This document shows, piece by piece, positions 5,584 to 61,869 of a stretch of DNA of 64,000 nt (the stretch's first letter is position 1; every line of letters begins with the position of its first letter). Under the pieces are notes generated by a model. The model worked only from the letters and a program-made list of their open reading frames with translations, did no database searches and had not been told where the DNA came from. This DNA is from a virus, in IMG/VR virus record IMGVR_UViG_3300047499_000113, positions 176,016-240,015 of that record, one strand, 5' to 3'. The position numbers and the translations under genes were made by a program.

Positions 5584-5593
5584 AGCGTACAAT
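5584..5593. promoter_or_regulatory. Divergent -10 pair sharing one GTAC
   Basis: On plus, GTACAAT (5587-5593) ends 6 bases before the ATG at 5600. On minus, GTACGCT (5584-5590) ends 7 bases before the TTG at 5576. The two elements overlap on the palindromic GTAC, so only one direction can probably fire at a time. Confidence 0.55.
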
Positions 5594-5599
5594 ACGTGC

Positions 5600-5851
5600 A
5601 TGCCCAACTACCAGATCGAAATGCTCTGGCGCTGCGTTTGCAACGCCAAACAAGTCAACAAGGGCTTGTCCCGGCATTGCAGTAGTTGTGGGCGTCCGAA
5701 GGGCCCCGACATGGAGGAGTTCTTCCCGGATGATATAAGTATCCGGGCTGCCCTCCGGCGTGGAAATCTTGCCGTAGTCACTCGATGGGGACGATTGCAG
5801 CGTCGCCGCGGTCACGAAACTGCGGAAGTGACACTTCGTGCAGGATGTTGA
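5600..5851 (+). CDS. Small zinc-ribbon protein
   Basis: 83 residues, beginning MPNYQIEMLWRCVC and containing CVC followed by CSSCG, a plausible four-cysteine zinc ribbon. A GTACAAT element sits 6 bases before the ATG. The last quarter overlaps the 3' end of the opposite-strand sigma-like gene and is Arg-rich; the true protein might be shorter if a frame error exists. The function is unknown. Confidence 0.5.
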   Translation: MPNYQIEMLWRCVCNAKQVNKGLSRHCSSCGRPKGPDMEEFFPDDISIRAALRRGNLAVVTRWGRLQRRRGHETAEVTLRAGC

Positions 5852-6551
5852 AGTGCTTGTCCGAAATGGCGAAGAACACGGTCCAATACTTGCCGTACTT
5901 GGAGTTCTTGACCGCGTCCTCGAGTTCGTGCTCGGCCGCTTCGACTTCGTCCTGAGAACGACCCTGCTTGCGCATCATCTGCACTTGGACCTGCTTCTCG
6001 CGAGCCTCCTCGGCGATGAGGTCCTTAATGCGTTGAAGAGCGCGGAAGAAACGATGACGGACCCGGCCTTGGGTCAGGTTCATCTGCTTGGCGATCTCTG
6101 ACTGGCATGTAGTCTCGTACATGCGCCAGAGAATCTCCCTGTCCTGATCACAGAACTTGGGCCCAAGTTCCAGCTCGAACAGCTCCTCGTCCAACTCGGG
6201 AATGGTGCGGAGGAATTGAATGCGCTTGATGCCGCGGTGAAGACGATAACTCACGGCCGCCTGGGTGATGCGGAACAACTTGGCTATCTGTTCCTGCTTC
6301 ATCTTGTCGTGGTGATACAGACGGATGAGATCCGCCTCGCGCGGCGGGATCCTATCCAGGTACGGCGCCACGGCGGCGAAATCGAGTGACCGGCTCTCGG
6401 CTTTCAGCTCCTCTTCGGGCTCCGGCGCGAGTTGCGCTTCGATCAGCTCGTCGAGGTCTTGTTCGGTGTCGGCGTCGTAGCCGAGCCTATCTTTGGTGCT
6501 GTAGCGAGAAGAGAGATTACTCGGATCCTGGATCAGGATATGGGATGACAT
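5778..6551 (-). CDS. Sigma-like protein with two region-4-type HTH motifs
   Basis: 257 residues. Residues about 70-110 (IPPREADLIRLYHHDK then QEQIAKLFRITQAAVSYRL) and 130-175 (QSEIAKQMNLTQGRVRHRFF) each look like a sigma-70 region 4 helix-turn-helix. No region 2 is obvious. GGAG lies 5 bases before the ATG. It may bind -35 DNA or the RNA polymerase beta flap to redirect host transcription. Other HTH regulators are possible. Confidence 0.65.
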   Translation of the reverse strand: MSSHILIQDPSNLSSRYSTKDRLGYDADTEQDLDELIEAQLAPEPEEELKAESRSLDFAAVAPYLDRIPPREADLIRLYHHDKMKQEQIAKLFRITQAAVSYRLHRGIKRIQFLRTIPELDEELFELELGPKFCDQDREILWRMYETTCQSEIAKQMNLTQGRVRHRFFRALQRIKDLIAEEAREKQVQVQMMRKQGRSQDEVEAAEHELEDAVKNSKYGKYWTVFFAISDKHFNILHEVSLPQFRDRGDAAIVPIE

Positions 6552-6721
6552 TTGGCTCCGACCGTGGCGACCCGTGAGGATCGGCAGTTTCCCGAGTATG
6601 CGTATTTGTCTGAGGACCCGTGCGGGTCAACGGAGTATACGTATTGGTCTGCGTATAACGGCGGAGCCGGTGCTTCCCGGCACGCTAATGACACACTACC
6701 AGATGAATCTTTTGTCTGGAA
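6552..6721. other. Intergenic spacer with short hairpin
   Basis: 170 bases between two minus genes. GACCCG/CGGGTC (6615-6628) can form a 6-bp stem with a 2-base loop. Near-repeated blocks around GCGTATTTGTCTG and ACGTATTGGTCTG flank it. It may hold the promoter of the sigma-like gene; no convincing reading frame is seen. Confidence 0.35.
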
Positions 6722-7759
6722 TCAGATACCTTCGAGCCAGCTCTCGAGAGGCACCTGACCATCGCCAACGGCTGCCGGCGGGCGGAAGGGACCGAAGTCC
6801 AGACCCGAGATAAGTAGGTCTTCCCGACAGATGTCGACTGCCAATTGGTAGTCCTTCTTACCGGGTTGGAGGCTCGAGGAGAGGTCCAGGTCGTCCTGGA
6901 GACCCACGAGCCTCCAGTTCATCTCTATACGGGCTCGGTGCTCGAGGGTCTTGGTCCGTTCGCCGTTGCTGAAGCTGGTCAGGCCCGAGGCGAACACATC
7001 TTCCACGGTGGGAAGATGGCACACAGTCATAGCTGTCTTCTTGCGCAGTAGCGGTACGCCGGGGATGCTGTCCGAGTTGTCGCCGCAAAGCGACTTGAAC
7101 ATCCGCACCTGGCCGCAAGGGACCTTGGGGTGTTTCCCCTTGAGGAGTCGACCCCACACCTCGGCGGACGCCGCGGCATCAACGAACCGTTGCTCCTTCG
7201 AGCCCGGACGGAACATCACCACACGCGGATCTGTCAGGAGTTGGAAGAAGTCCTTGTCGTCCGACACGACGATGCGGACGGAGTCCGGATGCTGCTTGCA
7301 GAAGCTGGCGATGAGGTCGTCGGCTTCCTCCGCATGATTGTGGTAGACGTCGCACCCGAGGAGTTGCAAGATATGTGACAGGACGGCGATGTCACTCTCG
7401 GCCTCGAAACCGTCGCGGAGCCGGAGTGGGATCTTGACCGTCTCTTCACCGAAGAGCTTGAGATCGTGCTTGGTGTCCTCGCGCTTGATCTTGTACGTGG
7501 GATCGAGCGCTCGCCGGCGCACGGGTGCCCCGTCGAAGAAGATGGATACAGACGTGAACGGCTGCATCTCATAGAGCCAAGAACACAGGAACGTAAGGAA
7601 CCCGTAGATGATGCCGGTCGGATACCCTTTCGGGCCACTCATCAGCGGCCTGCCATCTTTGAGACGGCCTTCGACGAAGACGTAAAATGCTCGCTGCAGG
7701 ACGTTATTCCCGTCCACCACGACGTGGCGTTTGGTCTCCGCTCCTCCGATGTGCCTCAC
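6722..7759 (-). CDS. 5'-3' exonuclease (FEN/PIN family)
   Basis: 345 residues, the family length for phage or Pol I-type 5' nucleases that remove RNA primers and flaps. Visible metal-binding motifs are VVVDGNNVLQRAF near the N-terminus, EEADDLIASF (about 155), VSDDKDFFQLL (about 175) and LCGDNSDSIPGVP (about 225), the last leading into the helix-3-turn-helix. The GTG start overlaps the stop of the NusG-like gene. It clusters with clamp loader, clamp and primase, consistent with Okazaki-fragment processing. Confidence 0.9.
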   Translation of the reverse strand: MRHIGGAETKRHVVVDGNNVLQRAFYVFVEGRLKDGRPLMSGPKGYPTGIIYGFLTFLCSWLYEMQPFTSVSIFFDGAPVRRRALDPTYKIKREDTKHDLKLFGEETVKIPLRLRDGFEAESDIAVLSHILQLLGCDVYHNHAEEADDLIASFCKQHPDSVRIVVSDDKDFFQLLTDPRVVMFRPGSKEQRFVDAAASAEVWGRLLKGKHPKVPCGQVRMFKSLCGDNSDSIPGVPLLRKKTAMTVCHLPTVEDVFASGLTSFSNGERTKTLEHRARIEMNWRLVGLQDDLDLSSSLQPGKKDYQLAVDICREDLLISGLDFGPFRPPAAVGDGQVPLESWLEGI

Positions 7760-8367
7760 GTGTCGTCCTTCTGCAAATACGAGGCTGGAAAGTCCATGAA
7801 GATGCCGCCTCCCTTGATGGAGCGCAGGTTCACGAATACCTGGACTTTCTCACCGTCGTCGTAGATCATCGCGACGCGACCGGGGAGTCCCTTGTAGCTA
7901 CCCTTGGTGATTTTGACGCGCTGGTCTTCCTTGAACCTCGAGGCCGTAACTTTCAGGTCCTGCATGCCGTTGCGCATGTGAGACAGGTCCTTGTCGGTCA
8001 AGAGTGAATAGACTCGCTTCTTCTCACCATTGACCGAGCTGAGACTGCTCAGCACCATGTTGAAGTAGTTGGTCTCGGCGAGTTTGTGGTAACTGACGCC
8101 AGGTTCGTACTGCACGAAGACGTAGCCTTCGGAGTACCAGGTAGTCAGAGAGTCATCAATCCCCTTCTGGTTGATGGCCGGGACGAAGACGTCCAGATCG
8201 TTTCGAGCAAGGATCTGATGAGCAGATCGAATGATCAGCTGGATATTCTTCTCCCGCTCCCCAAGGGCCGTCAGCTGCACGACCACCCACTGAGAGACGG
8301 GTGGCGGAGCAGCGGGCGGAATCGATGCTTTCTTATTCTTGACCTTTGATCCTTTGGAGGAAGCCAC
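7756..8367 (-). CDS. NusG-like transcription factor
   Basis: 203 residues from a GTG start with GGAG about 8-10 bases upstream; the start lies inside the 3' end of dnaX. The N-terminal NGN-like domain includes QWVVVQLTALGEREKNIQLI and EGYVFVQYEPG. The C-terminal KOW-like domain includes RVKITKGSYKGLPGRVAMIYDD. NusG family proteins bind the RNA polymerase clamp and control pausing and termination. The central linker is longer than in bacterial NusG. A phage antiterminator role is inferred. Confidence 0.75.
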   Translation of the reverse strand: MASSKGSKVKNKKASIPPAAPPPVSQWVVVQLTALGEREKNIQLIIRSAHQILARNDLDVFVPAINQKGIDDSLTTWYSEGYVFVQYEPGVSYHKLAETNYFNMVLSSLSSVNGEKKRVYSLLTDKDLSHMRNGMQDLKVTASRFKEDQRVKITKGSYKGLPGRVAMIYDDGEKVQVFVNLRSIKGGGIFMDFPASYLQKDDT

Positions 8368-9754
8368 GCGCGAACTCCTTTGGCGCCATCGGATGGAGAT
8401 CCTTATCCAACCGTACGTCCGGAGCGCTGGTCGGACCCGTGGCAATCGGGGCCCCACGGCTTCCTTTCTCGAGCTTGTCGTCCACTGAGGTGAGCTTTTC
8501 GGCCGGAGTGAAGCTCACTCCGTCGATTTCGAGTGCTTTCGGCTTGACGATACGACGTGGAGGCTCCGCCTTGACCTCCGGTTTGGGCTCGGGAGCCTTC
8601 GGAGCCGGTGCAGGCTGGGGAGGGGCCTGCTGGACGGGCGCTGCCTGCGGAGGGGCAGCCTGGGGCGCCGGCGTAGGCGGCGTTGGAGGCGTTGAGAGCC
8701 GCTTCTCCCAGTCGGCCGGCAGAGGAGTGGTAGCGGCAGGAAGATTGGGGATGGCCTCAAACAAGATGGCCTCGACGTCGGCGGCGCCGGGTTTGTCGAG
8801 CTGACCGAGGGCTTTCGCCACAGCGAGCCACGCCGGTCCACGCGTCGCGTACAGCGATGCGGGCACCATCAGGGTCGGCTTCGCCCCGACACTCGCCCGC
8901 ACGGCGCTGGTGACCACTTGGATCGTGGTGTCGCGCACCCAGGACGGTCCTTCTGTGTCGAGAAGCTCAGAAATAGCGCTCAGCGCCACCTTCGGGTCGG
9001 ACGATAGTCCTTCGAGCGCGGCGACCAGCTTCTCTGTCGCCCCGAGCCTGAAGTATGTCCTGACGTCGTCGACTGTGATAGGCCCCGCCGACGACAGCAT
9101 CTCGAGGGCAGTTAGACACGTGCGCGGGCAGTTAGACTGCGCCTGCATGATCAGCTGAAGTGCGTCGTCAGGCGCTTGAATGGACTCGGCCTCGCAGACA
9201 CGATGCAGGTGTCCAAGCAAAACGTCCACGGGCGGCGCAGAGACGGGAAACTCCGTCATCCTGTCGCGCAACGGCCCCTGGATTTTGTGAGGCTCCGTAG
9301 TGCACAGGATGACGAGCATTCGCCGATCTTCGATGCTCTTGAGGAGAGCATCTTGGGCCTGCTTCGTCAGACGCTGCGCTTCGTCTAGGATGAAAACAGA
9401 CGGCTTGCCGTTGAGATTCCCGTAGTCGAGTTCCGACACGATGGTACGCATATGCTCGACCGAGCCCTGCGTAGCGGCATCGAATTCCTCGAAACTTTCC
9501 GCGCTTTCCTGACGCACGCCGAGACATGCGTTGCATACGCCGCAGGGCTCACCGTCCTGCAAATCGTTGCAGACTACAGCGCACGCCACAATGCGCGCGA
9601 GCGAGGTTTTGCCGCAGCCCTTCGGGCCCCCGAACATCAGTGACCGCTCGCCGAGCTTTCCGCCACGACTGAGCTGATGAAGGAGCTGTACGACAGCTTT
9701 GTTCCCCAAGATATCGGCGAACTTCTTGGGTCTGTACTTGAGGTCAAGAGCCAT
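8333..9754 (-). CDS. dnaX: DNA polymerase III gamma/tau clamp-loader subunit
   Basis: 473 residues. AAA+ core: Walker A GGPKGCGKTS, a four-cysteine zinc site starting CNDLQDGEPCGVCNAC, Walker B FILDEAQRLTKQAQ and sensor 1 ILCTTEPHK. A Pro/Ala-rich linker (about 365-420) precedes a short C-terminal domain, as in tau. The canonical SRC arginine finger reads DRMTEF, so the finger is shifted or altered. Clamp, delta and delta-prime genes are in the same window, giving a complete phage clamp loader. Confidence 0.92.
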   Translation of the reverse strand: MALDLKYRPKKFADILGNKAVVQLLHQLSRGGKLGERSLMFGGPKGCGKTSLARIVACAVVCNDLQDGEPCGVCNACLGVRQESAESFEEFDAATQGSVEHMRTIVSELDYGNLNGKPSVFILDEAQRLTKQAQDALLKSIEDRRMLVILCTTEPHKIQGPLRDRMTEFPVSAPPVDVLLGHLHRVCEAESIQAPDDALQLIMQAQSNCPRTCLTALEMLSSAGPITVDDVRTYFRLGATEKLVAALEGLSSDPKVALSAISELLDTEGPSWVRDTTIQVVTSAVRASVGAKPTLMVPASLYATRGPAWLAVAKALGQLDKPGAADVEAILFEAIPNLPAATTPLPADWEKRLSTPPTPPTPAPQAAPPQAAPVQQAPPQPAPAPKAPEPKPEVKAEPPRRIVKPKALEIDGVSFTPAEKLTSVDDKLEKGSRGAPIATGPTSAPDVRLDKDLHPMAPKEFARGFLQRIKGQE

Positions 9755-9761
9755 CGCGCTT

Positions 9762-9768
9762 ATATTAC
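9762..9768 (-). promoter_or_regulatory. Start-proximal -10 element for dnaX
   Basis: GTAATAT ends 7 bases before the dnaX ATG; no ribosome-binding site intervenes. Confidence 0.5.
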
Positions 9769-11900: not shown

Positions 11901-12465
11901 CTTTCTGATCGTACCACAAATTCGACGTCAACTCGGGCGGCGGGAGTTGCGGGAGAGCAGGAATTGGCTTCCAGAATTTGGACTGGAGCCAGAACCAGAA
12001 CCGTTCGAGGAACGTCAGCGGGACTTCGTGAATGCGTTCCCCGAGGACCCACTGGAGCGTGGCGACGTCCCGGTAGTTGTTGAACACGTACTCGTCGTCC
12101 GAGAGCCTATCCAGAAAGTCCTTGCGAGCCTGCTCGAGTGTGACTCGTGGCTTGAACATCGGGCAGCGCTTCGCTTTGTCGTCCGAATCGCATGTGTCTC
12201 CCTGCCATGTCGCCGCATTGTCGGCGCCGTACATGCACAGGTGCACCGATTGGTCGTGTCCGACCACGACGAGCGTTTTCTGGATTCGAGGAGCCAGCTC
12301 CATTTCAGTCTCGAGCGAGGGCTTGTACTCGAGCTGCGCCGGCGCGTGCTCTTCATTGAAGACGCAGTTCTTGTAGCACCGAGCCTGCGTCGCTTCCACA
12401 TGTTTGTGGGCGTACCGAGACCGGAGCTTTTTGAGCCGCGACTCCACCTGAGCACGTGTCTTCAC
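11878..12465 (-). CDS. Hypothetical Cys-rich protein
   Basis: 195 residues. CYKNCVFNEE (about 30) and CDSDDKAKRCPMF (about 95) give several cysteines suited to metal binding, and WFWLQSKFW near the C-terminus is aromatic. The ATG overlaps the stop of the SMC-like gene. The function is unknown; the replication-operon position is the only clue. Confidence 0.6.
   Translation of the reverse strand: MKTRAQVESRLKKLRSRYAHKHVEATQARCYKNCVFNEEHAPAQLEYKPSLETEMELAPRIQKTLVVVGHDQSVHLCMYGADNAATWQGDTCDSDDKAKRCPMFKPRVTLEQARKDFLDRLSDDEYVFNNYRDVATLQWVLGERIHEVPLTFLERFWFWLQSKFWKPIPALPQLPPPELTSNLWYDQKDDSPPAS
11908..11914 (-). promoter_or_regulatory. Start-proximal -10 element
   Basis: GTACGAT ends 7 bases before the ATG at 11900, inside the end of the preceding gene. 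Confidence 0.45.
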
Positions 12466-16437: not shown

Positions 16438-16444
16438 ACGGTAC
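16438..16444 (-). promoter_or_regulatory. Start-proximal -10 element for sbcD-like gene
   Basis: GTACCGT ends 5 bases before the ATG at 16432, within the 33-base gap after the RecD2-like gene. Confidence 0.5.
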
Positions 16445-18760: not shown

Positions 18761-18767
18761 GTAAGAT
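18761..18767 (+). promoter_or_regulatory. Start-proximal -10 element for HNH gene
   Basis: GTAAGAT ends 9 bases before the ATG at 18777. The following TTCTCCC also occurs before the gene at 51975. A 10-bp palindrome, AAACCGGTTT, lies just upstream at 18741-18750. Confidence 0.5.
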
Positions 18768-19418: not shown

Positions 19419-20249
19419 TCATTGCACGCTTTCCCCCATCATTTCGTACAGTCGAGCCTCAGAGATCACTTCAGTGCCATATTTCTTGGCATTCTGCATC
19501 TTCTTGGACGTGGTGTCCGTCTCGTTGGTCACCAGGTAGCTGAGCCCGGCGCCTACACTGTCCTTGACAATCCCGCCGGCGTCCATAATCAGCTTCTGCA
19601 CGGCTTTCCGGGGCTTGGAAGTTGCCCCCGTAATGCAGAATGACTTGCCGGAAAGTGGGCCGGCTCCAGGACCCCGGATGTCGAGGACCTCTGCAAGATC
19701 CATTATAGCACGTCGACGGTCTTGGAGCCCATCATAGACCTGCTGGGCGGTCACCGGGCCAATATTCGGGACCTCGCGGAGTTGTTCGACGGTCAAGGCC
19801 AGGACCTTCTCCACAGAGTCGTAACCGGCCTGAACGATGTCCGTTGCAGTCGCCACGGCCAGATTCGGGATGTTCAGTGAAGCGATCAGCAGCTCGAGCT
19901 TGATGCTCTTGTTGGAGTGCAGGATATCATGGCACTTCTTGGCCATCTTCAGGCCCGAAGTGCATTCGGCGATTTCCTCAGGCTCGAGCTTGTAGAGATC
20001 GGCCAACGACTGGATCTTTGGGCTGTCTGGATTGGTGAGCGCGTCGATGAGCGCGTCGCCCCAATGCAACAGACCTAGCCGCTTGACCCAAACCCGCACC
20101 GAGCCCGAAAGCTGGACTGGACAGGCGCGGTTCCGGCAGTAGAGGAACTGCCCCTCGACGCTCAGTGATCCTGAACAGGCGGGACAGTGATCGGGAATCG
20201 CGAAATAGTCGGGTGCCGCGTTCATACCCTGCCAGGATACATCCGCCAC
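19419..20249 (-). CDS. NAD-dependent DNA ligase, C-terminal subunit (Zn, HhH, BRCT)
   Basis: 276 residues from a GTG start. Zinc finger HCPACSGSLSV...CRNRACPVQL (20-50), helix-hairpin-helix repeats including VPNIGPVTAQQVYDGL (about 170-190) and a BRCT domain (LSGKSFCITGATSKPRKAVQ to the end). These are exactly the parts missing from the ligase gene at 21277 on the other strand. It should join that subunit to seal nicks. Phage T5 also has a two-subunit NAD ligase, but with adjacent genes. Confidence 0.88.
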   Translation of the reverse strand: MADVSWQGMNAAPDYFAIPDHCPACSGSLSVEGQFLYCRNRACPVQLSGSVRVWVKRLGLLHWGDALIDALTNPDSPKIQSLADLYKLEPEEIAECTSGLKMAKKCHDILHSNKSIKLELLIASLNIPNLAVATATDIVQAGYDSVEKVLALTVEQLREVPNIGPVTAQQVYDGLQDRRRAIMDLAEVLDIRGPGAGPLSGKSFCITGATSKPRKAVQKLIMDAGGIVKDSVGAGLSYLVTNETDTTSKKMQNAKKYGTEVISEARLYEMMGESVQ

Positions 20250-20254: not shown

Positions 20255-20261
20255 AGCTTAC
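20255..20261 (-). promoter_or_regulatory. Start-proximal -10 element for ligase C-subunit
   Basis: GTAAGCT ends 5 bases before the GTG at 20249 and falls in a 14-base gap after the preceding stop. Confidence 0.5.
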
Positions 20262-20843: not shown

Positions 20844-21278
20844 CTAGGAGGCCATCACCTTGGCCACCTCGATAAGTTCCAGGATGGTCTCGATGCTTTC
20901 GACCTGTGTGTAGAAGAAGTAGTCGTGCCTCTGACCCTTGAGATAGGTCGCGCGGATGATCCCCGAGTATTTCTCCTGCAGGATTCTCTCGACTGCTTCC
21001 TGACTTGGCATACCTGGAAGGTCGCCGATATCACGGATCCAAACCATTCGGACCTTCGCCATCTCGCCGACTCGCGGTGCACAATATCCGAGACCCGGAC
21101 GCTCGAGCTCGACGTAGCAGATGAAGCCGGCCGCGGCGAGCATGTCCCGCCCATGCTCGCGGAACAGATCTTCGACTGCTTTCAGGTACTGCTTGTAACT
21201 GGAAGAGTCACCCTCAGAGAAGTAGGTGATTCTCCGCTCAGGCGTAGCTTTCGATTTCTTGAGCGTACCCTTTGGCAT
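20844..21278 (-). CDS. Hypothetical protein, divergent from ligase
   Basis: 144 residues, alpha/beta, with RITYFSEGDSSSYKQYLKAV and a helical C-terminus (IETILELIEVAKVMAS). LPGMPSQEAVERILQEK resembles LPGMPVQDIGDTLDKK in the protein at 50798, a possible shared motif. Its ATG overlaps the ATG of the opposite-strand ligase gene in GCATGC. The function is unknown. Confidence 0.6.
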   Translation of the reverse strand: MPKGTLKKSKATPERRITYFSEGDSSSYKQYLKAVEDLFREHGRDMLAAAGFICYVELERPGLGYCAPRVGEMAKVRMVWIRDIGDLPGMPSQEAVERILQEKYSGIIRATYLKGQRHDYFFYTQVESIETILELIEVAKVMAS

Positions 21279-22389
21279 GCCTGAGGAGTCCCTGGAAGAA
21301 GCCCGAACCCGCCTCCGACGCTACCAGGAGGCTTATTACAACCTCGAGCCCCTCGTACCCGATTCCGAGTACGACGCGCTGGTCGAGTGGGTGCGGCAGC
21401 AGGATCCAAACGCGCCCGAACTCAAGAAGGTCGGGGCACCAGTCCCAACCCATTCAGTTTGGGAGAAGGTCGCGCACGACATCCCCATGGGTTCGCTCAG
21501 CAAGGCCAACAACGAGGCGGAGTTCCTCGAATGGGCCGGCAAACTCTCCGCCGAGACTTGGTTCATCACGCATAAAATCGACGGATCGTCGATGGAGCTG
21601 GTCTACAAGGCCGGCAAGCTCATCAGATGCGTGACTCGCGGCGACGGGATGATCGGCGAGGATGTGACCGCAAACATCGCCCAAGTTCCGTCAGTCCCCA
21701 AAGAACTGCCGGTGAAGGTCGATGTGACGGTCCGGGGCGAAATCGTCATGTTCAAGGACGTGTTCAAGGAAAAGTATGCCGAGGAATACGCCAATCCGCG
21801 CAACACGGCCGCCGGCAAGGTCCGACAGAAGAAGGATGGAGGCGAGTCATGCCAGGACCTCGAGTTCCTGGCCTACTGGATGAAGATGGGCAACCATCTC
21901 GACCAGCCCAAGACGATGCACGTCACTTTCATGTGGCTGCAAAATCACGGCTTCAAGACGCCGGCCGGTCTCGCATCCGCCGAACTCGACGCCATCAAAT
22001 CCCACTTCGCGCAGACGGCCAAAGAACGAGATGCGGTCCCGTACGAGATTGACGGGATGGTCGTATCCGTCAACAGTCTCGAGCTGATGGAGGAGTTGGG
22101 GGACCTCAACATGCGCCCGCGCGGTCAAATCGCGTGGAAATTCGAAGCCCTCATGGGCATCACGCGCATGGTCGCGGTCAAATGGCAGGTGGGCCCCTCC
22201 GGACGCGTCACTCCGGTCGCTGAGGTCGAGCCCGTCGAGGTCGGAGGGGTCACCATCACGAGTGTCAGCCTGCACAATCTTTCCATCTTCCGAGATCTCA
22301 AGCTCTGGAAGGGGTGCCGGGTCCTCGTGTCCCGGCGCAACGACGTCATCCCGTATATCGAGAAGAACCTCGACCTCGAAGCGGCATGA
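21277..22389 (+). CDS. NAD-dependent DNA ligase, N-terminal subunit (adenylation, OB)
   Basis: 370 residues from the ATG at 21277. Domain Ia (YYNLEPLVPDSEYDALVEWV) binds NMN. Nucleotidyltransferase motifs: HKIDGSSMEL (lysine nucleophile), TRGDGMIGEDVT, VRGEIVM, NPRNTAAGKVRQ, YEIDGMVVSV and IAWKFEA. An OB fold ends near residue 365. The protein stops at the OB/zinc boundary of standard LigA; the remaining domains are encoded at 19419-20249 on the minus strand. No ribosome-binding site is evident. Confidence 0.9.
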   Translation: MPEESLEEARTRLRRYQEAYYNLEPLVPDSEYDALVEWVRQQDPNAPELKKVGAPVPTHSVWEKVAHDIPMGSLSKANNEAEFLEWAGKLSAETWFITHKIDGSSMELVYKAGKLIRCVTRGDGMIGEDVTANIAQVPSVPKELPVKVDVTVRGEIVMFKDVFKEKYAEEYANPRNTAAGKVRQKKDGGESCQDLEFLAYWMKMGNHLDQPKTMHVTFMWLQNHGFKTPAGLASAELDAIKSHFAQTAKERDAVPYEIDGMVVSVNSLELMEELGDLNMRPRGQIAWKFEALMGITRMVAVKWQVGPSGRVTPVAEVEPVEVGGVTITSVSLHNLSIFRDLKLWKGCRVLVSRRNDVIPYIEKNLDLEAA

Positions 22390-23071: not shown

Positions 23072-23078
23072 ACACTAC
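23072..23078 (-). promoter_or_regulatory. Start-proximal -10 element
   Basis: GTAGTGT ends 6 bases before the ATG at 23065 and overlaps the stop codon of the 42-residue gene upstream. Confidence 0.4.
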
Positions 23079-23203: not shown

Positions 23204-26200
23204 TCAGCTACAGCCGGTCGTTTGACCGCACGAAGTGCACAGGTAGCACGACCCATTGCGCTGCGTGATGCTGCCGCACCGAGCGCACGGAGGGCCACCG
23301 AGATTCTTGCGGGGAGGAACAGGCTCTTCCGCCGTAGCGACGGCCTGGATGCGTGTCGACGAATCGGGCTCCTTCGAGATTCCCTCGCGAACGTCCATTG
23401 CCGGCGGAGGAGCTTCAGACGCCTTCATCTGAGCGAGCTTCTCCTCGAGGCCCGAGTGCGAGCCGCCGTAGTAACGGACATCGAGCACCTTGAACAGGTA
23501 GTCGTACAGGCTCTTGGCGAACCTGATGTGCTTGTTCGAGGTGATGCCGGCGGGCTCGAACCTCGTATCGACGAAGCTTTGGATGAGCTTCGGCAGAGGC
23601 ACGCCATACTGAAGAGCGATGCTCATCAGCTGCGTGAATCCGTCGATGAGGCCCGAAATCGTGCTTCCTGGCTTTCCGAGCTTGAGGAATACCTCGCCCG
23701 GTCGCCCGTCCGCGTATTCGCCGACGATGATGTATCCCTTGTAGCCGTCGATCTCGAACTTGTGGCGCCAGCTGTTGACCTCGGCGGGCAGCTTCTCACG
23801 ACGTGCTCCAGCGGCCTTCGCTTCCGCGATGAGCTGGTCGACCGGAGGAGCCTTCGGCGCCGGCGCGGGCCTGATCCCTTCCTTGTCGCCGTCCTTCTTG
23901 GTAGAAAGAGGCTGCGAAGCCTTGCACCCGTCACGGTAGAGCGCGATGCACTTGAGCCCGAGCCGCCAGCTCTCCTCGTAGATCTTGGCGATTTCCTCGG
24001 CCGTGATCTCGCTCGGAAGATTGACGGTCTTGCTCATCGCGCACGTGATGAGCGGTTGTATGGCCGCCATCATCTTGATGTGCGCCATGGGCGAAAGGTA
24101 TCGACCGCCAGGTGCAGAAGGCATTGCGCAGTCGAATACTGGAAGGTGCTCGGGCTTGAGACCCGGAGCGCCTTCGATGGTGCCGTTGTCCTCGAGGGAC
24201 TTGCAGATGGTGTTGATCTGGTCTTCGGCGTAGCCGAGTCCGAGAAGCGCGTCACGTACGCCCGTGTTCACCAGGCGCAGAGAGCCTCCGCCCACCATGC
24301 TCTTGTAGCTCACGAGCGAGAACGCCGGCTCGATGCCGGTGGTGCTCATTCCCATGAGGAACGAGATGGTGCCGAGAGGCGCCTGGAGAGAAGCCTGCGA
24401 TACCGAGTAGCCGTACCTCTCACCAAGAGCGATTGCCTCGCGCCACACCTCGGCCGACGTCGGAACCACGTCGTCCCCGGTCGGAGACGACTCGAGATGC
24501 CAGCGCTTGATGATGGTCGCATCAGCTTCTTGATGCATCTTCATCACGCGGAGCATGTCCTCGCGGTTCAGCTCGAAATCCGGGAACGAGCCGACACGCG
24601 CCGCGAGCTTCGCCGCGGTGACGTAGACCATGCCCGTCATGAGCGATGCCATCTGCGCAGCTACCGCACGACCTTCGTCGGTGTCGTAACCGTAGCCGAG
24701 CTTCATCAACAGCGCTCCGAGGTCGCCGTAGTTCGTCCCGATGGGGCGCAGCTTGTGCGAGTTGTGCGCGATCTCTTCGGTCGGGTAATCCGCCTTGTCG
24801 ATGATCGCCATCTGCGAGGTCGAGAACAGGCGAACAGCCTGCTCGAAACGCGCCTTGACGAACTTGCGACCGTCGAAGAACTTCGTCAGGTTGATCGCGC
24901 ACAGGTTGCACGCCGTGTTGTCGACATGCAGGAACTCGCTGCAGTTGTGAGCCACCACCCCGTCAGCAATCAGAGAGCTCGTCTCCGGCTCCGTGATGTC
25001 ATAAACGAGGGTTTGCTCGCCTTTGTCGACGACCCTTACGACTTCATCGGTCCATTGATCACGGCCGTTGTTGTTCACGCCTTCCGGGATTTCGTCCAAA
25101 CGCGCCTGCTTGCGTGAGGAGAGGAGACCCACTTCGAGCATAAGAGATTTGAAGGTACGCAGACTCTGTCCAGTGATGACGAGATCGTTCGTTTTTTCCT
25201 TGGACGGGTAAGTCCGGACTTCCCCAGATTTGGTCGTATACGTGAACGACGGCTTATCGCCAGGACGCCGATCCTTATAAAGAGTGCTGTTGACGCCGAG
25301 GTTCAGAAGAAGAGCCTGCACTCCGCGCAGAAGTTCCAGGCTGGTGGAGCTGAAGCGAGCGTCGACGTTCTTCTTCGGCTGGATGTTGAAAGTCCCATCC
25401 GCAGAGAACAGGCCAGAGAGGAACGAGAGCTGCTCCAGTCGAGTGGAGCAAAAAACCGCGTCCATCACTTTCTTGACTGGAGCCTTCGTTCCCGGCTCGC
25501 AAGAAAGCGTGGACATTAGTTGCCAGACAGCCTTTCGGTGAATACGGACATAGTCCGGACTTTCACCCACAGAGCCGTCCTGACGCTTCAACGAGTATGG
25601 GATGTCGTTCCGTTCGAAGAACTTCGAGACGGTATCGAGGACGTCCTTGTCGTCACGACCGAACAGAAGGCCAACCTCGTGAGTGTTTCTGCAGGGGAGA
25701 GGTCGCAGAACCCAGCCGTCGCCGACGACCCAGCCGGCGAGCTTATGCCACATCAGGCGATCGTCGACAGCAGAGAAAGCTTTTTGAGCCTCCGTCGGGA
25801 GGCATGGCTCAGCACCCTTCTCAGAGAAGGCTCCCTGTCCGGCCTGAAGCATCAGGATGCTTTCATCCGTCAGATCGCGCGCTTCAACCCAGCCGTCCTT
25901 GGTCATGAGGCGATGATCATGGGTGACTTTGATGACACGGCCTCGACGCGTGTGAACCTCGACGAGGTGATGGACACCGGTCGGGAAGACGACCGCGTCC
26001 TTGAGCTGAGGACCGTCCGGAGTTTGGACGAGAGTGCGGAATGTCGGTTTATTCGAGTCAAAAGACTCGAACTCGGAGCAGAGATCCTCAATTCGCACGA
26101 GTCCATGCTCAGTGGCGATCCTAGTGTCCGGATGGAAGCACGGATTGCTCGCACGGATCGGACCACTCTTGGGAGTGGTGTGCCACCTGTTGATGGCGTC

Positions 26201-27289
26201 CGTGAACTGCACGCCAGGGTCTCCACAGACCCACGCGGCTTGAGCGATCTCGTTCCACAGCTCACGTGCCTTGTACTTGTGAACTGTCTTGCCCGAGCGG
26301 CGTTCCTTCGTTTCCCACTGCCCGTCGTCGAGCATGGCCTGCATGAAGGAGTCCGGCACCGACACTGAGTTGTTGGCCGCCTGGAATCGAATCCGCTTGT
26401 AGGCCCCATTCGGATCGTCGTACGCAGCCGAGTAGCCCGCCGCCACGAGCGCGTGAGCAAGCTTCTCCTCTTCCGCCTTGCAGCGGATGAAGCCCGGACG
26501 TCCATCGCGAGTCTGTAGCACGTCGGGATGGTCCATGTCCATCACGACCATCTTGGCCGCGTTGCGTGTGGCGCCGCCTGACTTCATCGCCTTGGCGTAG
26601 GCGTCGAGTCCTTCCATCCACGAGATTGGACCGGACGTGTACGAGCCAGACGAGATCTTCTCGTAAGAGGAACGGAGCTTCGAGATGTTGGCGCCGGAAC
26701 CAGATCCTGAACGGAAAATCTTCATCTCCGCGGTCTGATACTTCATGATGTCTTCGATGGAGTCGTTGACATCTTGGATGAAGCACGCCGAGGCCATCTG
26801 AGCGCGGCCGGCGATACCGAGATTGAACCACACAGGCGAGTTGAACGCGCCGTACTGGTGGAGAAGAGCGTAGCAAAGCTCCTCCTCGAACACCTGCGCG
26901 TCCCTGTCCGTGTTGAAGTATTTCTGCTCCTCGGCCCAGCGGCGGAGAGTCGAGCATACGCGCTGGAAGACTTGCTTGACGGAAGTCTCACGCACGCCGT
27001 TGATCACGCGGAAGTATTTATCCGCAACGACGTTGATGTTGTTCTGAGTCCACCACGCGGGCACCTCGATGTCCTTCTGAAAGAACACCACGTCGCCCTT
27101 GGCGTTGCGGATCTCAGCATCGGCACGACGCCACTCCACCTCGTCGAAAGGATGGACGCCGTCCTTCGTGAAAACACGGGGCCAGTGACCAGCTTCTTTG
27201 GCGATGCGCGCTTGCTCCGACGACAGATCAGCACGGGTCCCTTTCAGGATCGGTACCACTTGTGCTGACATTACGCTAGCGCTTGACAT
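23204..27289 (-). CDS. nrdJ: Class II (B12-dependent) ribonucleotide reductase with intein
   Basis: 1361 residues including a 399-residue intein; the spliced product would be about 962 residues. GAFNSPVWFNLG and FRSGSGSGANISKLR lie before the intein. The catalytic NPCSE cysteine follows it, then DNTACNLCAINL and LGTISFLMGMSTTGIEPAFS. The C-terminal part carries a GYKGYIIVGEY segment and a Cys-rich tail (CARCGS...CYLCTSCG) for redox transfer. GAGGAGG lies 6 bases before the ATG, inside the end of the delta gene. It makes dNTP precursors without needing oxygen or a small subunit. Confidence 0.92.
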   Translation of the reverse strand: MSSASVMSAQVVPILKGTRADLSSEQARIAKEAGHWPRVFTKDGVHPFDEVEWRRADAEIRNAKGDVVFFQKDIEVPAWWTQNNINVVADKYFRVINGVRETSVKQVFQRVCSTLRRWAEEQKYFNTDRDAQVFEEELCYALLHQYGAFNSPVWFNLGIAGRAQMASACFIQDVNDSIEDIMKYQTAEMKIFRSGSGSGANISKLRSSYEKISSGSYTSGPISWMEGLDAYAKAMKSGGATRNAAKMVVMDMDHPDVLQTRDGRPGFIRCKAEEEKLAHALVAAGYSAAYDDPNGAYKRIRFQAANNSVSVPDSFMQAMLDDGQWETKERRSGKTVHKYKARELWNEIAQAAWVCGDPGVQFTDAINRWHTTPKSGPIRASNPCFHPDTRIATEHGLVRIEDLCSEFESFDSNKPTFRTLVQTPDGPQLKDAVVFPTGVHHLVEVHTRRGRVIKVTHDHRLMTKDGWVEARDLTDESILMLQAGQGAFSEKGAEPCLPTEAQKAFSAVDDRLMWHKLAGWVVGDGWVLRPLPCRNTHEVGLLFGRDDKDVLDTVSKFFERNDIPYSLKRQDGSVGESPDYVRIHRKAVWQLMSTLSCEPGTKAPVKKVMDAVFCSTRLEQLSFLSGLFSADGTFNIQPKKNVDARFSSTSLELLRGVQALLLNLGVNSTLYKDRRPGDKPSFTYTTKSGEVRTYPSKEKTNDLVITGQSLRTFKSLMLEVGLLSSRKQARLDEIPEGVNNNGRDQWTDEVVRVVDKGEQTLVYDITEPETSSLIADGVVAHNCSEFLHVDNTACNLCAINLTKFFDGRKFVKARFEQAVRLFSTSQMAIIDKADYPTEEIAHNSHKLRPIGTNYGDLGALLMKLGYGYDTDEGRAVAAQMASLMTGMVYVTAAKLAARVGSFPDFELNREDMLRVMKMHQEADATIIKRWHLESSPTGDDVVPTSAEVWREAIALGERYGYSVSQASLQAPLGTISFLMGMSTTGIEPAFSLVSYKSMVGGGSLRLVNTGVRDALLGLGYAEDQINTICKSLEDNGTIEGAPGLKPEHLPVFDCAMPSAPGGRYLSPMAHIKMMAAIQPLITCAMSKTVNLPSEITAEEIAKIYEESWRLGLKCIALYRDGCKASQPLSTKKDGDKEGIRPAPAPKAPPVDQLIAEAKAAGARREKLPAEVNSWRHKFEIDGYKGYIIVGEYADGRPGEVFLKLGKPGSTISGLIDGFTQLMSIALQYGVPLPKLIQSFVDTRFEPAGITSNKHIRFAKSLYDYLFKVLDVRYYGGSHSGLEEKLAQMKASEAPPPAMDVREGISKEPDSSTRIQAVATAEEPVPPRKNLGGPPCARCGSITQRNGSCYLCTSCGQTTGCS
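24944..26140 (-). mobile_element. LAGLIDADG intein within nrdJ
   Basis: Residues 384-782 of the precursor. It begins at Cys384 (CFHPDTRIATEHGLV), has block B-like VTHDHRLM, and ends ADGVVAHN before Cys783. Two LAGLIDADG-like helices (KLAGWVVGDG and FLSGLFSADG) mark a homing endonuclease domain. The +1 extein residue is the cysteine of NPCSE, the reductase thiyl-radical position, so an unspliced enzyme would be inactive. Confidence 0.92.
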
Positions 27290-28190: not shown

Positions 28191-28201
28191 GGACTGGTAG
28201 C

Positions 28202-29023
28202 TTACACCAGAGACACCAGATGGGTAGCCATTCTCAGCCAATGGATCTCGGCGCTCGCGGACGGCACGGAGAGTAGAGCGGAGCTGTATCTGAGAATCGT
28301 CACCAACTGATCGGTCGTGGCTTTCTTGAACTTCGCTGCGGTGAGCGCTGCTTCGCGACAAACGTGCGCTACGCACTCTCGTTGCAGGGGTTCTTTGGCC
28401 TCTTTGACGACCTCCGGTACGGAGTCAGTCAGTAGACTGGCCTTGCCCTCGCACGCACGCATGAGGATGTCGAACAACTCGGCGTGCTTGGTGCCGCCCT
28501 CGTTTTCGAACATAGCATGGAAGAGTCCGGGCCGTCCGCCACACAAGATGAGCGCTTTGCTGTCTTCGCCGGATCCGAAGGCGACGGCGAAGTTGCGCAT
28601 CTCCATGAGAGACAAGAGCTTCCATCGAATGGTGCAACGGAATCTCGAGCGGATCGCGGGCTGCAGGAGCCCATCGTCCGGCACCACAAACACGATGCAC
28701 GAATGATCGCCCGGCTGCTCGAGAAGCTTGAGATACGCGTCCTGCGCAGCCTCCGTCATCGTATGCGCATCATCAACGATGACGTACCTATTCGGTGACG
28801 AGAGCGGGTGCGTCTTGCAGAATTCGACCGCCTCGCGAGCCGAATCGATACTTTTGTCTGCCAGGAAGAGATCCGTCTCTGCCGTCAGCTCAGATAGGGT
28901 GTCCCTCAGGAACGTCGCTTTGCCCACGTGCGACGGACCCGTCAGGCACAGACTCCTGGCCGAGCTGTCCAGAGCCACCTTCAGCTTCGACTGCGCTGGG
29001 GAGTTGCCGAAGATTTGCGTCAA
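28202..29023 (-). CDS. holB: DNA polymerase III delta-prime subunit
   Basis: 273 residues from a TTG start. GPSHVGKATFLRDTL is a P-loop, RYVIVDDAHTMTEAAQDAYL the Walker B/sensor region, LLEQPGDHSCIVFVV sensor 1, and AIRSRFRCTIRW the SRC-like arginine finger. It completes the clamp loader with DnaX and HolA. The start overlaps the end of the zinc-ribbon frame upstream. Confidence 0.85.
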   Translation of the reverse strand: MTQIFGNSPAQSKLKVALDSSARSLCLTGPSHVGKATFLRDTLSELTAETDLFLADKSIDSAREAVEFCKTHPLSSPNRYVIVDDAHTMTEAAQDAYLKLLEQPGDHSCIVFVVPDDGLLQPAIRSRFRCTIRWKLLSLMEMRNFAVAFGSGEDSKALILCGGRPGLFHAMFENEGGTKHAELFDILMRACEGKASLLTDSVPEVVKEAKEPLQRECVAHVCREAALTAAKFKKATTDQLVTILRYSSALLSVPSASAEIHWLRMATHLVSLV

Positions 29024-34555: not shown

Positions 34556-34562
34556 GTATAAT
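34556..34562 (+). promoter_or_regulatory. Consensus -10 at head of plus-strand operon
   Basis: GTATAAT ends 7 bases before the ATG at 34570. TATAAT is the perfect sigma-70 hexamer, and transcription would start at or next to the ATG. Only a weak TGAC-containing -35 candidate is visible. Confidence 0.65.
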
Positions 34563-35328: not shown

Positions 35329-35335
35329 GTACGGT
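35329..35335 (+). promoter_or_regulatory. Start-proximal -10 element for purZ-like gene
   Basis: GTACGGT ends 6 bases before the ATG at 35342. Confidence 0.5.
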
Positions 35336-40967: not shown

Positions 40968-40974
40968 ACGATAC
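40968..40974 (-). promoter_or_regulatory. Start-proximal -10 element
   Basis: GTATCGT ends 5 bases before the ATG at 40962, in the 38-base divergent gap facing the PAS gene. Confidence 0.5.
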
Positions 40975-43626: not shown

Positions 43627-43633
43627 GTAAGTT
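43627..43633 (+). promoter_or_regulatory. Start-proximal -10 element before a TTG start
   Basis: GTAAGTT ends 7 bases before the TTG at 43641, supporting that unusual start. Confidence 0.45.
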
Positions 43634-44690: not shown

Positions 44691-45076
44691 TGGACTCCAC
44701 GGTGAAAGTCGGACCGATACCTGGTGAGTCTGATCCGAAAGACGCGGCGCAGGAACGGCTCACCAAACTGAAGGAGTCGTTCAAGCTGGGAACCTATCAG
44801 CACTACAAGGGCCCATACTACACGGTCTACGCGCTCTCCATCAAGGAGGACACATGCGACGTGCTCGTGCACTACTCGCATGATCACAAGACCCAGTGGA
44901 CAAGGACCTTCGAAGACTTCACGACTGCCGTCGAAGGACACGGCAAACGCTTCAAATACGTGCGAGAAGCGCACCCGATTCAGCTTCTGCGGGCTGCCGG
45001 TTTCGACAGCATGGTAGACGGCTTCCAGGCGCTCGGAGACGCGTGGCAGTTTCTGCGTGAGATTCGCGGCGCGTAA
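44690..45076 (+). CDS. DUF1653-like protein
   Basis: 128 residues; the ATG overlaps the previous stop (TGATG). GTYQHYKGPYYTVYALS and QWTRTFEDFTTAVEG match the G-x-Y-x-HYKG...W.R....F pattern of DUF1653, a small beta barrel of unknown function. The C-terminal 30 residues are helical. A GTACAAT occurs about 20 bases before the ATG. Confidence 0.65.
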   Translation: MDSTVKVGPIPGESDPKDAAQERLTKLKESFKLGTYQHYKGPYYTVYALSIKEDTCDVLVHYSHDHKTQWTRTFEDFTTAVEGHGKRFKYVREAHPIQLLRAAGFDSMVDGFQALGDAWQFLREIRGA

Positions 45077-45079
45077 CGT
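45073..45079 (+). promoter_or_regulatory. Start-proximal -10 element
   Basis: GTAACGT ends 5 bases before the ATG at 45085 and overlaps the preceding stop codon. Confidence 0.5.
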
Positions 45080-45395: not shown

Positions 45396-45402
45396 GTAGC
45401 GT
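45396..45402 (+). promoter_or_regulatory. Start-proximal -10 element for Ig-repeat gene
   Basis: GTAGCGT ends 6 bases before the ATG at 45409. Confidence 0.5.
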
Positions 45403-48534: not shown

Positions 48535-48541
48535 GTAAAGT
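48535..48541 (+). promoter_or_regulatory. Start-proximal -10 element for spanin-like gene
   Basis: GTAAAGT ends 5 bases before the ATG at 48547. With the next three bases it forms GTAAAGTTAC, which also reads GTAACTT on minus, 60 bases before the deformylase start. Confidence 0.5.
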
Positions 48542-49720: not shown

Positions 49721-49730
49721 AAAGTACAGT
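49721..49730. promoter_or_regulatory. Divergent -10 pair sharing one GTAC
   Basis: Plus GTACAGT (49724-49730) ends 5 bases before the endolysin ATG. Minus GTACTTT (49721-49727) ends 7 bases before the nucleotidase ATG. Both use the same palindromic GTAC. Confidence 0.6.
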
Positions 49731-51283: not shown

Positions 51284-51507
51284 GACTCCATAATACGCTT
51301 GACGACCTCGAGGTCGCAAGACAGGTAGCCGAATGACTCGTCGTTGTCGACTGTCTCTTCGTGAACGATGCGACCGTCGTAGCGCTTGCGGATAGTCTTC
51401 TTCTCGTCGAGCTTGAAGACACCACACCTTTTGCACTTGTACGTGAAGCTGATGCCGCGTTCTTCAGTTCCCCACTCGCCGTACTTTTCCCACTCGTGCT
51501 CGGTCAC
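51280..51507 (-). CDS. Small zinc-ribbon protein, HxW...CxxC...MES family
   Basis: 75 residues. It has MTEHEWEKYG at the start, YKCKRCGVFK near residue 25 and YLSCDLEVVKRIMES at the end. Both ends overlap neighbours by ATGA/GTGA-type junctions. The function is unknown. Confidence 0.75.
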   Translation of the reverse strand: MTEHEWEKYGEWGTEERGISFTYKCKRCGVFKLDEKKTIRKRYDGRIVHEETVDNDESFGYLSCDLEVVKRIMES

Positions 51508-51928: not shown

Positions 51929-51935
51929 ATAATAC
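51929..51935 (-). promoter_or_regulatory. Start-proximal -10 element
   Basis: GTATTAT ends 5 bases before the GTG at 51923. Confidence 0.55.
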
Positions 51936-51959: not shown

Positions 51960-51966
51960 GTAGGGT
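51960..51966 (+). promoter_or_regulatory. Start-proximal -10 element
   Basis: GTAGGGT ends 8 bases before the ATG at 51975; TTCTCCC follows, as at 18767. Confidence 0.5.
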
Positions 51967-56137: not shown

Positions 56138-56144
56138 GTAAGGT
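56138..56144 (+). promoter_or_regulatory. Start-proximal -10 element
   Basis: GTAAGGT ends 5 bases before the ATG at 56150. AAGGT could instead act as a ribosome-binding site. Confidence 0.4.
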
Positions 56145-58842: not shown

Positions 58843-58849
58843 AAAGTAC
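58843..58849 (-). promoter_or_regulatory. Start-proximal -10 element
   Basis: GTACTTT ends 8 bases before the ATG at 58834. Confidence 0.5.
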
Positions 58850-60019: not shown

Positions 60020-60024
60020 GCCCA

Positions 60025-60031
60025 AGATTAC
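60025..60031 (-). promoter_or_regulatory. Start-proximal -10 element
   Basis: GTAATCT ends 5 bases before the ATG at 60019. Confidence 0.5.
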
Positions 60032-60040
60032 ACGGGCCGA

Positions 60041-60355: not shown

Positions 60356-60397
60356 GCAAGGTCGGTACGGGACAGGACTGCAATTTACAGAATGTTG

Positions 60398-60418: not shown

Positions 60419-60461
60419 AAGCTCGGGCATCTTCCTATGTGTGTCAGACGGGTGACGACTC

Positions 60462-60782
60462 CTAGTCAGCCTCGTCCTGCTCTTTCCACCACTCGATGAA
60501 CCACTTCGTCAGGTGGTAGTAGTGAATCATGGCAGCGACGAAAGTGACGGTCATCACTATCTCGCACCATAGCGGGACGGGCTTGCCTATCATCCAAATG
60601 AAGAAGTGGTCCACGAACTTCACGACGTCATTACGTAGTGCACCGTGCACCGTGTACTCTTCGCAGTTGAATTTCTTGCCGTCCTGCTCGACCTTGGCGG
60701 TGGCCGCAGGCACGTAATCGGGCGGCACGCGGATACGCTCGAATACGCCGCCGCAGCGCTCGCACTTGTAGCGACGGCGCAC
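60462..60782 (-). CDS. Zinc-ribbon membrane protein
   Basis: 106 residues from a GTG. N-terminal YKCERCGGVFERI suggests half of a zinc ribbon. LWCEIVMTVTFVAAMIHYYHL (about 70-90) is a probable membrane helix, preceded by aromatic residues (HFFIWMIG). The C-terminus is Trp/Glu-rich. The function is unknown. Confidence 0.55.
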   Translation of the reverse strand: MRRRYKCERCGGVFERIRVPPDYVPAATAKVEQDGKKFNCEEYTVHGALRNDVVKFVDHFFIWMIGKPVPLWCEIVMTVTFVAAMIHYYHLTKWFIEWWKEQDEAD

Positions 60783-60904
60783 GGCGCGACCTGACGAAAT
60801 CGTGAACCTTCCGCGGCCCCGCGGCCGCGGGCGGGGCGCCTACGCTCTGGCCGTGACCGAACTTCTTGCAGATGTGACTAGTGGGCAGCACCCACTAATT
60901 GTAC
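60783..60904 (-). promoter_or_regulatory. GC-rich leader with GTACAAT promoter
   Basis: GTACAAT lies at 60898-60904 on minus. The roughly 115-base leader to the GTG at 60782 holds a GTGGG/CCCAC hairpin and a dense CCGCGG/GGCCGC palindromic block near 60820-60840, which could block or control translation. Confidence 0.4.
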
Positions 60905-60905
60905 A

Positions 60906-61272
60906 TCAGTTCCAGCGGTTGCCGTCCGGCGATCTCGTGCGGGTCTTGCCGGCGGCGGGCTGCGGACCGGACTCGTCCGCATCGGCGTCGCCAATCTCCA
61001 CTTCGTCCTTGTCGCCGGTGACGCCCGCGCATTGAAGCGACTGCGTTTCGACCAGGGCGCCTTCTGCCTTGGGCGGAGGTGGCGATGGTGCAAGTCACGT
61101 AGCCGTCGTTGTCCGAATCGATTTGGGCGCAGTTTGGGCTTGCCCTGAACCTTGATGCCCAGGTCGTCGGCCCACTTCTGCGCGGCCTGCTCGGGCGGAA
61201 CGGTGTTGTGGCGCTCGTCGCAGGCGACCTGCAACCCATCCAGCACAGGGTGAGAATGATGGCTTTCTTCAT
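60906..61272 (-). pseudogene. Lipoprotein-like gene broken by about three frame shifts
   Basis: The start MKKAIILTLCWMG is a lipoprotein-type signal. Continuing needs frame changes to read VACDERHNTVPPEQAAQKWA, then NCAQIDSDNDGYVTCTIATS, then KAEGALVETQSLQCAGVTGD to a stop at 60906. Joined, these give about 120 residues resembling small phage lipoproteins with a DSDxDGYVxCT segment. GTAAATT lies on minus at 61302-61308. Breaks near homopolymers suggest sequence errors, but decay is possible. Confidence 0.6.
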
Positions 61273-61316
61273 TTGCACGAGCTGTGCAGCTCGAACGGTC
61301 CAATTTACAGCAGTGG

Positions 61317-61804
61317 TCAGCGCCGGGCGATGATGCTTTTGGGAATGCGCGCCAGACGCTCTTTTGCGGGCAGCTCGGACTTGTACCAGACGTCGACCAG
61401 CCGGAACATGTTCTTGGTGCAGATTTTGCGGCACATGTTGTCGACTTTCCGGCTCGGACGACCGGGCGAGATGTTCAGGTCCCACATGGACTCGTAGACC
61501 TTGTTCATCAGCTCCATGATTTGGTGCTGGGTCCAGTCCTGCATATGCGCCAGGACGCGCTCTTTCTCACTGATGCGGTTGCAGGAAGACTCGAACTGGC
61601 GAAGGAACTGCTGGCCGAACGCGCCCAGGTCGGCCGGCTCTTTCGTGACGACGATGGGGCTCGACCATGTACTGCGACTTGTCCCGCCAGGCGTACGCCA
61701 GGTAGTGGTGCAGCCACAGGGTGCCGGCGTCGCGGATGAAGATGACGGACGAAATGGACCCGTGTCCGTCTTCGTCGGAAAAGACTGTCCGGGTGGGCGC
61801 TCAC
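61317..61804 (-). pseudogene. Hypothetical gene broken by one or two frame shifts
   Basis: Pieces in successive frames read MSAHPDS, then VFSDEDGHGSISSVIFIRDA to SQYMVEP, then IVVTKEPADLGAFGQQFLRQ through MQDWTQHQIMELMNKVYESM to IIARR. The second break is at a CCCC run near 61670. Together they give about 160 residues with no recognised family. Confidence 0.55.
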
Positions 61805-61862
61805 TGTTCGAGACTGCTACACTGGCGCGGGATTCATTTGCGAAAATGCCGCTGCCGTAGGC

Positions 61863-61869
61863 GTACGCT
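61863..61869 (+). promoter_or_regulatory. Start-proximal -10 element
   Basis: GTACGCT ends 6 bases before the GTG at 61876. Confidence 0.45.

Follow-up and report, generated by a model that had tools for sequence, protein, structure and literature searches.

The DNA analyzed here (the window) is the last 64 kb, positions 176016 to 240015, of a 240,015-bp IMG/VR phage record, and our subject is a short word, GTANNNT, that stands a few nucleotides (nt) before many of its start codons. The window carries phage genes for a RecD2 helicase, Thy1, a split NAD ligase, and an intein-containing class II ribonucleotide reductase. It is immediately preceded in the record by the terminase and portal genes, and tRNA and Rfam searches of the window gave no match. 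An earlier note on the window had listed 23 starts that GTANNNT precedes by 5 to 9 nt and had proposed a leaderless, phage sigma-directed mode of gene expression. We analyzed the remainder of the record together with the window and refer to the whole 240-kb record as G000.

GTANNNT is placed at gene starts

Genes were called from codon statistics alone, independently of the motif. To allow for uncertain starts, each gene received its own set of possible starts (candidate starts), and every XYZNNNW word, 256 in all, was counted at identical offsets from identical sets (the start-blind test). Of the 194 genes in the whole record, 48 had GTANNNT ending 4 to 10 nt ahead of a candidate start, where 3.4 were expected, and the motif ranked first of the 256 words, with none of the other 255 close. 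It also topped the 256 patterns in the window taken separately, where 22 of 68 genes carried it at gaps (motif end to start codon) of 5 to 8 nt, relative to 1.0 expected. Since the raw number of GTANNNT copies in the window is ordinary (163 versus 153 expected), the signal is one of position. In the whole record, the gap was 5 nt in 21 cases, 6 nt in 14, 7 nt in 5, 8 nt in 7, and 9 nt in none, giving a peak at 5 to 6 nt, a shoulder at 7 to 8 nt, and background elsewhere. The motif precedes about a fifth of the genes in this phage and its huge-phage relatives, and these genes, which include replication, nucleotide, and probable structural functions, are not confined to one visible class.

The genome-wide comparison with shuffled controls that the earlier note had called for gave 46 observed sites against a mean of 5.4 and a maximum of 12 in shuffled upstream sequence; shifted windows gave a mean of 7.7 and a maximum of 14. 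Chance or an artefact of start choice might be suspected, given that start choice is uncertain and several candidates were admitted per gene. However, the same candidate sets served all 256 words, only GTANNNT stood out, it did so in seven contigs, and both shuffles and shifts fell short, so we consider this explanation negligible. The motif and its position are direct observations, and its placement before starts is real.

The motif behaves like a promoter element

Shine-Dalgarno (SD) sequences were scored at any candidate start. In G000, they were found in 6 of 46 motif genes, compared with 69 of 151 others, which agrees with the earlier claim that motif genes mostly lack a ribosome-binding site. 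The related contig G001 had SD sequences in 0/43 motif genes and 42/146 others, and in each of the seven contigs compared motif genes had them less often than other genes, significantly so in six. Gene context was also distinctive. The motif preceded 31% of genes with a divergent neighbor at least 40 nt away and 28% of genes lying 10 to 39 nt behind a same-strand gene, but only 8.5% of those abutting one. SD avoidance and gene context are, like position, directly observed. Because the motif is frequent beside divergent genes and rare where the upstream gene abuts, it behaves as a promoter would. No conserved -35 element was found upstream of it in the contigs compared, in line with the earlier note on the window; a weak A bias about 17 to 18 nt upstream of the motif G appeared in some lower-GC relatives only.

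These observations bear on two explanations in which GTANNNT is not a promoter. As an RNA signal, GUANNNU about 5 to 6 nt before AUG could bind the ribosome or a translation factor instead of an SD sequence, and this too would fix the distance to the start codon and keep SD sequences away. Yet TA...T is the known -10 core, and an RNA signal should also occur at operon-internal starts, where the motif is rare, rather than favoring divergent genes; we judge this explanation improbable. The motif could instead be the binding site of a regulator or of a packaging or modification enzyme that adjoins starts incidentally, and two places, 5584-5595 and 49721-49730, do have overlapping divergent copies that are partly palindromic (GTAC). 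Most copies, however, are single, point toward the gene, and are tied to the start codon within a 4-nt range, which makes a binding site of this kind more improbable still. A promoter function for GTANNNT is very likely, judging from its sequence and placement.

The code is conserved in related huge phages

The SNF2 helicase, the terminase, and a sigma-like protein of the window (family A, below) served as queries to gather a clade of huge-phage contigs; a search with the RecD2 protein gave no match. Six relatives (G001 to G006) were read wholly or largely, G006 being represented by 80 kb only. Stop-codon recoding was weighed for relatives with low called coding density; TGA was the most frequent stop in every one, and no genetic code stood out clearly as the best. 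In these six contigs and G000, which span 36 to 66% GC, GTANNNT was the top word and the gap peak was identical. Observed and expected counts were 62 versus 2.7 in G003, 49 versus 7.7 in G001, 47 versus 4.7 in G002, 36 versus 5.2 in G004, 27 versus 6.1 in G005, and 9 versus 2.1 in the 80 kb of G006. Among further clade contigs, the excess was strongest in G110 (25 versus 4) and G098 (11 versus 1), and it was small or absent in several AT-rich ones. Since whole-genome pattern counts are a weak measure in AT-rich contigs, our conclusions are drawn from the candidate-start test.

The initial G is as necessary as the T, A, and T, as HTANNNT at gaps of 5 to 6 nt was near background in all seven contigs. 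Of the three central bases, which vary almost freely, the last shows a mild preference for G, and a T preceding the motif G is a mere bias in some phages. At orthologous starts with alignable N termini, the motif was kept while flanking bases had diverged, for example in four phages at the MSE(V/L/I)R gene (start at 16432) and in five at the SNF2 helicase. Whether the motif was present at a G000 gene correlated with its presence at the G003 orthologue (Fisher P = 2e-6). The strict G and this conservation were thus observed directly. LR745208 and Tunturi_5 lack the code, with GTANNNT ranking 21st and 27th, respectively, counting from 0. In the 200 kb sampled of LR745208.1, a 485-kb relative, GTANNNA stood before starts 33 times, relative to 9.4 expected.

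Sites in the window

The motif was present at all 23 starts listed in the earlier note, 18 of which belong to independently called genes, whereas those at 5600, 18777, 43641, 51975, and 61876, all on the plus strand, belong to open reading frames (ORFs) that the gene caller does not support (Table 1). The list had omitted 21277 (plus), 28190 (minus), and 51283 (minus), and possibly 27259 and 20225 (both minus). Two of the genes with sites are split or interrupted. One strand encodes the N-terminal half of the NAD-dependent DNA ligase and the other its C-terminal half, and GTANNNT precedes both; the class II ribonucleotide reductase contains a LAGLIDADG intein.

Table 1. GTANNNT sites and sigma-like genes in the window (window coordinates; gap is from motif end to start codon)
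Feature	Position	Strand	Gap (nt)	Start codon	Gene or remark
GTACGCT	5584-5590	-	7	TTG 5576	Nucleoside hydrolase-like, 4674-5576
GTACAAT	5587-5593	+	6	ATG 5600	83-aa ORF, unsupported by gene caller
GTAATAT	9762-9768	-	7	ATG 9754	Clamp-loader-like AAA, 8333-9754
GTACGAT	11908-11914	-	7	ATG 11900	
GTACCGT	16438-16444	-	5	ATG 16432	Metallophosphoesterase-like; motif kept in 4/4 orthologues
GTAAGAT	18761-18767	+	9	ATG 18777	198-aa ORF, unsupported by gene caller
Second ligase C-half site	20234-20240	-	8	ATG 20225	
GTAAGCT	20255-20261	-	5	GTG 20249	C-terminal half of split NAD-dependent DNA ligase, 19419-20249
Second ligase N-half site	21244-21250	+	8	TTG 21259	
GTACCCT	21265-21271	+	5	ATG 21277	N-terminal half of split NAD ligase, 21259-22389
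GTAGTGT	23072-23078	-	6	ATG 23065	Motif kept in G002 and G003 orthologues
GTAATGT	27268-27274	-	8	GTG 27259	Class II ribonucleotide reductase with intein, 23204-27289; weaker site, orthologues without motif
GTAAGCT	28199-28205	-	8	ATG 28190	DNA polymerase III delta-like; motif kept in G002 and G005
GTATAAT	34556-34562	+	7	ATG 34570	
GTACGGT	35329-35335	+	6	ATG 35342	PurZ-like synthetase, 35342-36517; motif kept in G002 and G003
GTATCGT	40968-40974	-	5	ATG 40962	
GTAAGTT	43627-43633	+	7	TTG 43641	76-aa ORF, unsupported by gene caller
GTAACGT	45073-45079	+	5	ATG 45085	
GTAGCGT	45396-45402	+	6	ATG 45409	859-aa Ig-like repeat protein
GTAAAGT	48535-48541	+	5	ATG 48547	
GTACTTT	49721-49727	-	7	ATG 49713	Overlaps divergent plus site (pair 49721-49730)
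GTACAGT	49724-49730	+	5	ATG 49736	C-terminal endolysin-type domain; overlaps minus site
GTATTAT	51290-51296	-	6	ATG 51283	
GTATTAT	51929-51935	-	5	GTG 51923	
GTAGGGT	51960-51966	+	8	ATG 51975	70-aa ORF, unsupported by gene caller
GTAAGGT	56138-56144	+	5	ATG 56150	
GTACTTT	58843-58849	-	8	ATG 58834	
GTAATCT	60025-60031	-	5	ATG 60019	
GTACGCT	61863-61869	+	6	GTG 61876	157-aa ORF, unsupported by gene caller
Family A	5778-6551	-			257 aa; two sigma region-4 domains, no region 2
Family B	30967-32499	-			~505-aa divergent sigma-like protein; region-4-like 372-417, DnaA-domain-IV-like C terminus

Relation to known promoter classes

Leaderless promoters with a TANNNT -10 element are known from Mycobacterium tuberculosis and other Actinobacteria (PMC3898074, PMC3160421). 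The phage promoters would share with them a TANNNT about 7 to 12 bp upstream of the transcription start, the lack of a -35 consensus, and the absence of an SD sequence, and the phage core fits this class in preceding the start codon by about 12 bp. Transcription starts on the start codon at the actinobacterial promoters, whereas in the phages the start site is predicted from spacing. The main difference is the base before TANNNT, which is free in Actinobacteria, with an extended form (TGNTANNNT), but an obligatory G in phages of 36 to 66% GC. Nor is the phage element an extended -10, in which TG at -15/-14 is separated from TANNNT by one base, given that the phage G adjoins TANNNT. In Deinococcus-Thermus, leaderless genes are driven by a -10 region adjoining the ORF, and a second class of genes is SD led (PMC12340547); both features would recur in the phages, but in contrast to them, a D. 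deserti plasmid showed no preference for G (CTANNNT, 7 versus 0.9; GTANNNT, 7 versus 1.4; TTANNNT, 4 versus 0.8). The code is thus a stricter variant of a leaderless -10 signal already known in bacteria, and the mode itself is not new.

Promoters of the phiKZ/AR9 type are read by phage multisubunit RNA polymerases, have the words AACA-N6-TA/G and TATG, and in AR9 give leaders of 26 to 491 nt (PMC5312081). They resemble the present case in being genome-wide, phage-specific words in jumbo phages, but the words differ and no RNA polymerase beta domain was detected in these phages.

Clusters of short genes are preceded by a second promoter-like code, composed of G(T/C/G)AANNTC, about 10 to 12 nt, CGTA(C/T), 7 to 9 nt, GGAGG, and the start codon. 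It occurs in G003:C1 240001-273770 (L032-L033), G004 (L058-L060), G002 (L056), and G005 (L044-L045) and is absent from G000 and G001. Its sequence looks like a bipartite promoter of the extracytoplasmic function (ECF) type with a short, SD-led leader.

Candidate readers of the motif

The search for an RNA polymerase beta domain (PF00562) in these phages gave no match at E ≤ 1, under which the phiKZ control was detected; the search for beta' (PF00623) was uninformative, since it missed the phiKZ control itself. Because no beta domain was found, the host RNA polymerase is presumably used. Searches with sigma region 4 identified two conserved proteins in the window, families A and B, whereas a search of the phage with region 2 (PF04542) gave no match. 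Both families resemble ECF and sigma-70 proteins in carrying region-4-like domains but depart from them otherwise, family A having a double region 4 without region 2 and family B a long middle part, with region 4 weak and region 2 unproven.

Family A is 73 to 84% identical in five relatives and passes TIGR02937 (65.8 versus 42.9 bits) despite having no region 2. It is disfavored as the reader, because both it and a paralogue occur in LR745208, where the code is missing. An RpoD-like sigma-70, encoded additionally in G001, G002, and G004, is ruled out as the common reader because G000 and G003 do not have it.

For family B, PF04545 matched region 4 in five of six orthologues (best, 2.9e-7), the window copy falling under the cutoff, and the structure model of the protein matched SigR region 4 with a TM score of 0.73 by target. 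By eye, blocks around a long insert resemble regions 2.1-2.2 and 2.3-2.4; the sole profile support for region 2 is the PHROG 1740 sigma profile, at residues 257-399 of an orthologue (3.8e-5). The same low-confidence model matched DnaA domain IV at residues ~423-500 (Foldseek TM, 0.63 to 0.68 by target; root mean square deviation, 1.5 Å), an unusual fold to find adjoining a sigma region 4. Family B was present in 17 of 23 clade records tested and in 13 of the 14 longer than 160 kb, G001 being the exception. It was not found in LR745208 and Tunturi_5, both of which lack the code, nor in four short clade contigs. This distribution is suggestive, and no more than that, of family B tracking the code across phages. 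We put the odds at about even that a phage sigma-like protein, for which family B is the best candidate, sets promoter choice.

The reader could also belong to the host, an explanation that disputes who reads the promoter and not that it is one: the host's primary sigma factor would itself use leaderless GTANNNT promoters, which the phages obey. In Actinobacteria and Deinococcus-Thermus, leaderless promoters with TANNNT are widespread, and Acidobacteria have them as well (PMC3160421, PMC3898074, PMC12340547). An acidobacterium is also the host of Tunturi_5, the isolated phage whose terminase comes closest (26% identity). We counted GTANNNTN5-6ATG in 106 bacterial genomes, most of them from gemmatimonadotes and acidobacteria and the rest from other phyla (Actinobacteria and Deinococcus by one plasmid each); single gemmatimonadote genomes had it up to 119 times versus 61 in the control. 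However, this was at most an approximately twofold excess, and most genomes were near control, compared with 55 versus 9 in phage G003. Furthermore, G at -13 is not required in the mycobacterial and Deinococcus TANNNT, and the code is unchanged across the GC range of the phages. A host search with UDP-glucose dehydrogenase returned matches of 41 to 49% across many phyla and indicated no host. We rate a host reader as a serious competitor, though short of an even chance.

Other features of the phages

Collagen-like proteins are encoded at L008:3048-9935 (minus; a 2,295-aa repeat protein), L004:170-1795, and L008:15124-16176. The same phage has a peptidoglycan transglycosylase-domain protein at L009:639-2636 (plus) and, at L007:3142-14395, a glycosyltransferase set with UDP-glucose dehydrogenase and a B12-binding radical SAM protein.

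DISCUSSION

We propose, with a probability of roughly 0.7, that GTANNNT followed by 5 to 8 nt is the -10 element of leaderless promoters in a clade of huge phages, read by a phage or host sigma factor. TANNNT would occupy -12 to -7, with an obligatory G at -13 and no -35 element. Since the T at -7 lies 5 to 8 nt before the start codon, transcription is expected to begin on the first base of that codon, yielding leaderless mRNAs that would be translated without SD pairing, while other genes would be SD led or coupled to the gene upstream. Host RNA polymerase would presumably be used, with promoter choice made by a phage sigma-like protein or a host sigma factor.

The leaderless -10 part of the earlier proposal is well supported by spacing, SD loss, the missing -35, avoidance of operon-internal starts, and conservation. 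Its phage sigma-directed part is a plausible proposal; of the two sigma-like genes in the window, neither has a detectable Pfam region 2. Several points weigh against our proposal. Promoter function, the transcription start site, leaderless translation, and the reader are all deduced from sequence; a gap of 5 nt is at the short end of the usual distances between a -10 element and the start site; no Pfam region 2 was detected in family B, whose structure model is of low confidence (pLDDT, 64); G001 (182 kb) and G110 (158 kb) have the code but yielded no family B, although both may be fragments; and a host sigma factor sharing the GTANNNT preference could be the reader.

A more specific version holds that family B redirects the host RNA polymerase, without a -35, to a leaderless-only -10 element with G at -13, making the code host independent. 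The element might then be read in 2-aminoadenine DNA, since the window encodes a PurZ-like enzyme. We regard this version as doubtful. The PurZ-like synthetase scored 188 bits with the NCBIfam PurZ model, under the cutoff of 300, and matched PHROG 1211 at 6.8e-55; it has the sequence WGSSGKGK, with Ser at the position of PurA's Asp. Its sequence makes a 2-aminoadenine (Z) genome in this huge-phage clade possible.

Leaderless expression at such a scale has already been described for some bacterial phyla. In the open-access literature, subscription journals and preprints lying outside the search, we found no account of huge phages sharing a leaderless promoter word across a clade. If our proposal is correct, uncultured huge phages would have a readable gene-start code, start codons misplaced by annotation pipelines could be corrected, and the promoter reader would be open to biochemical testing.

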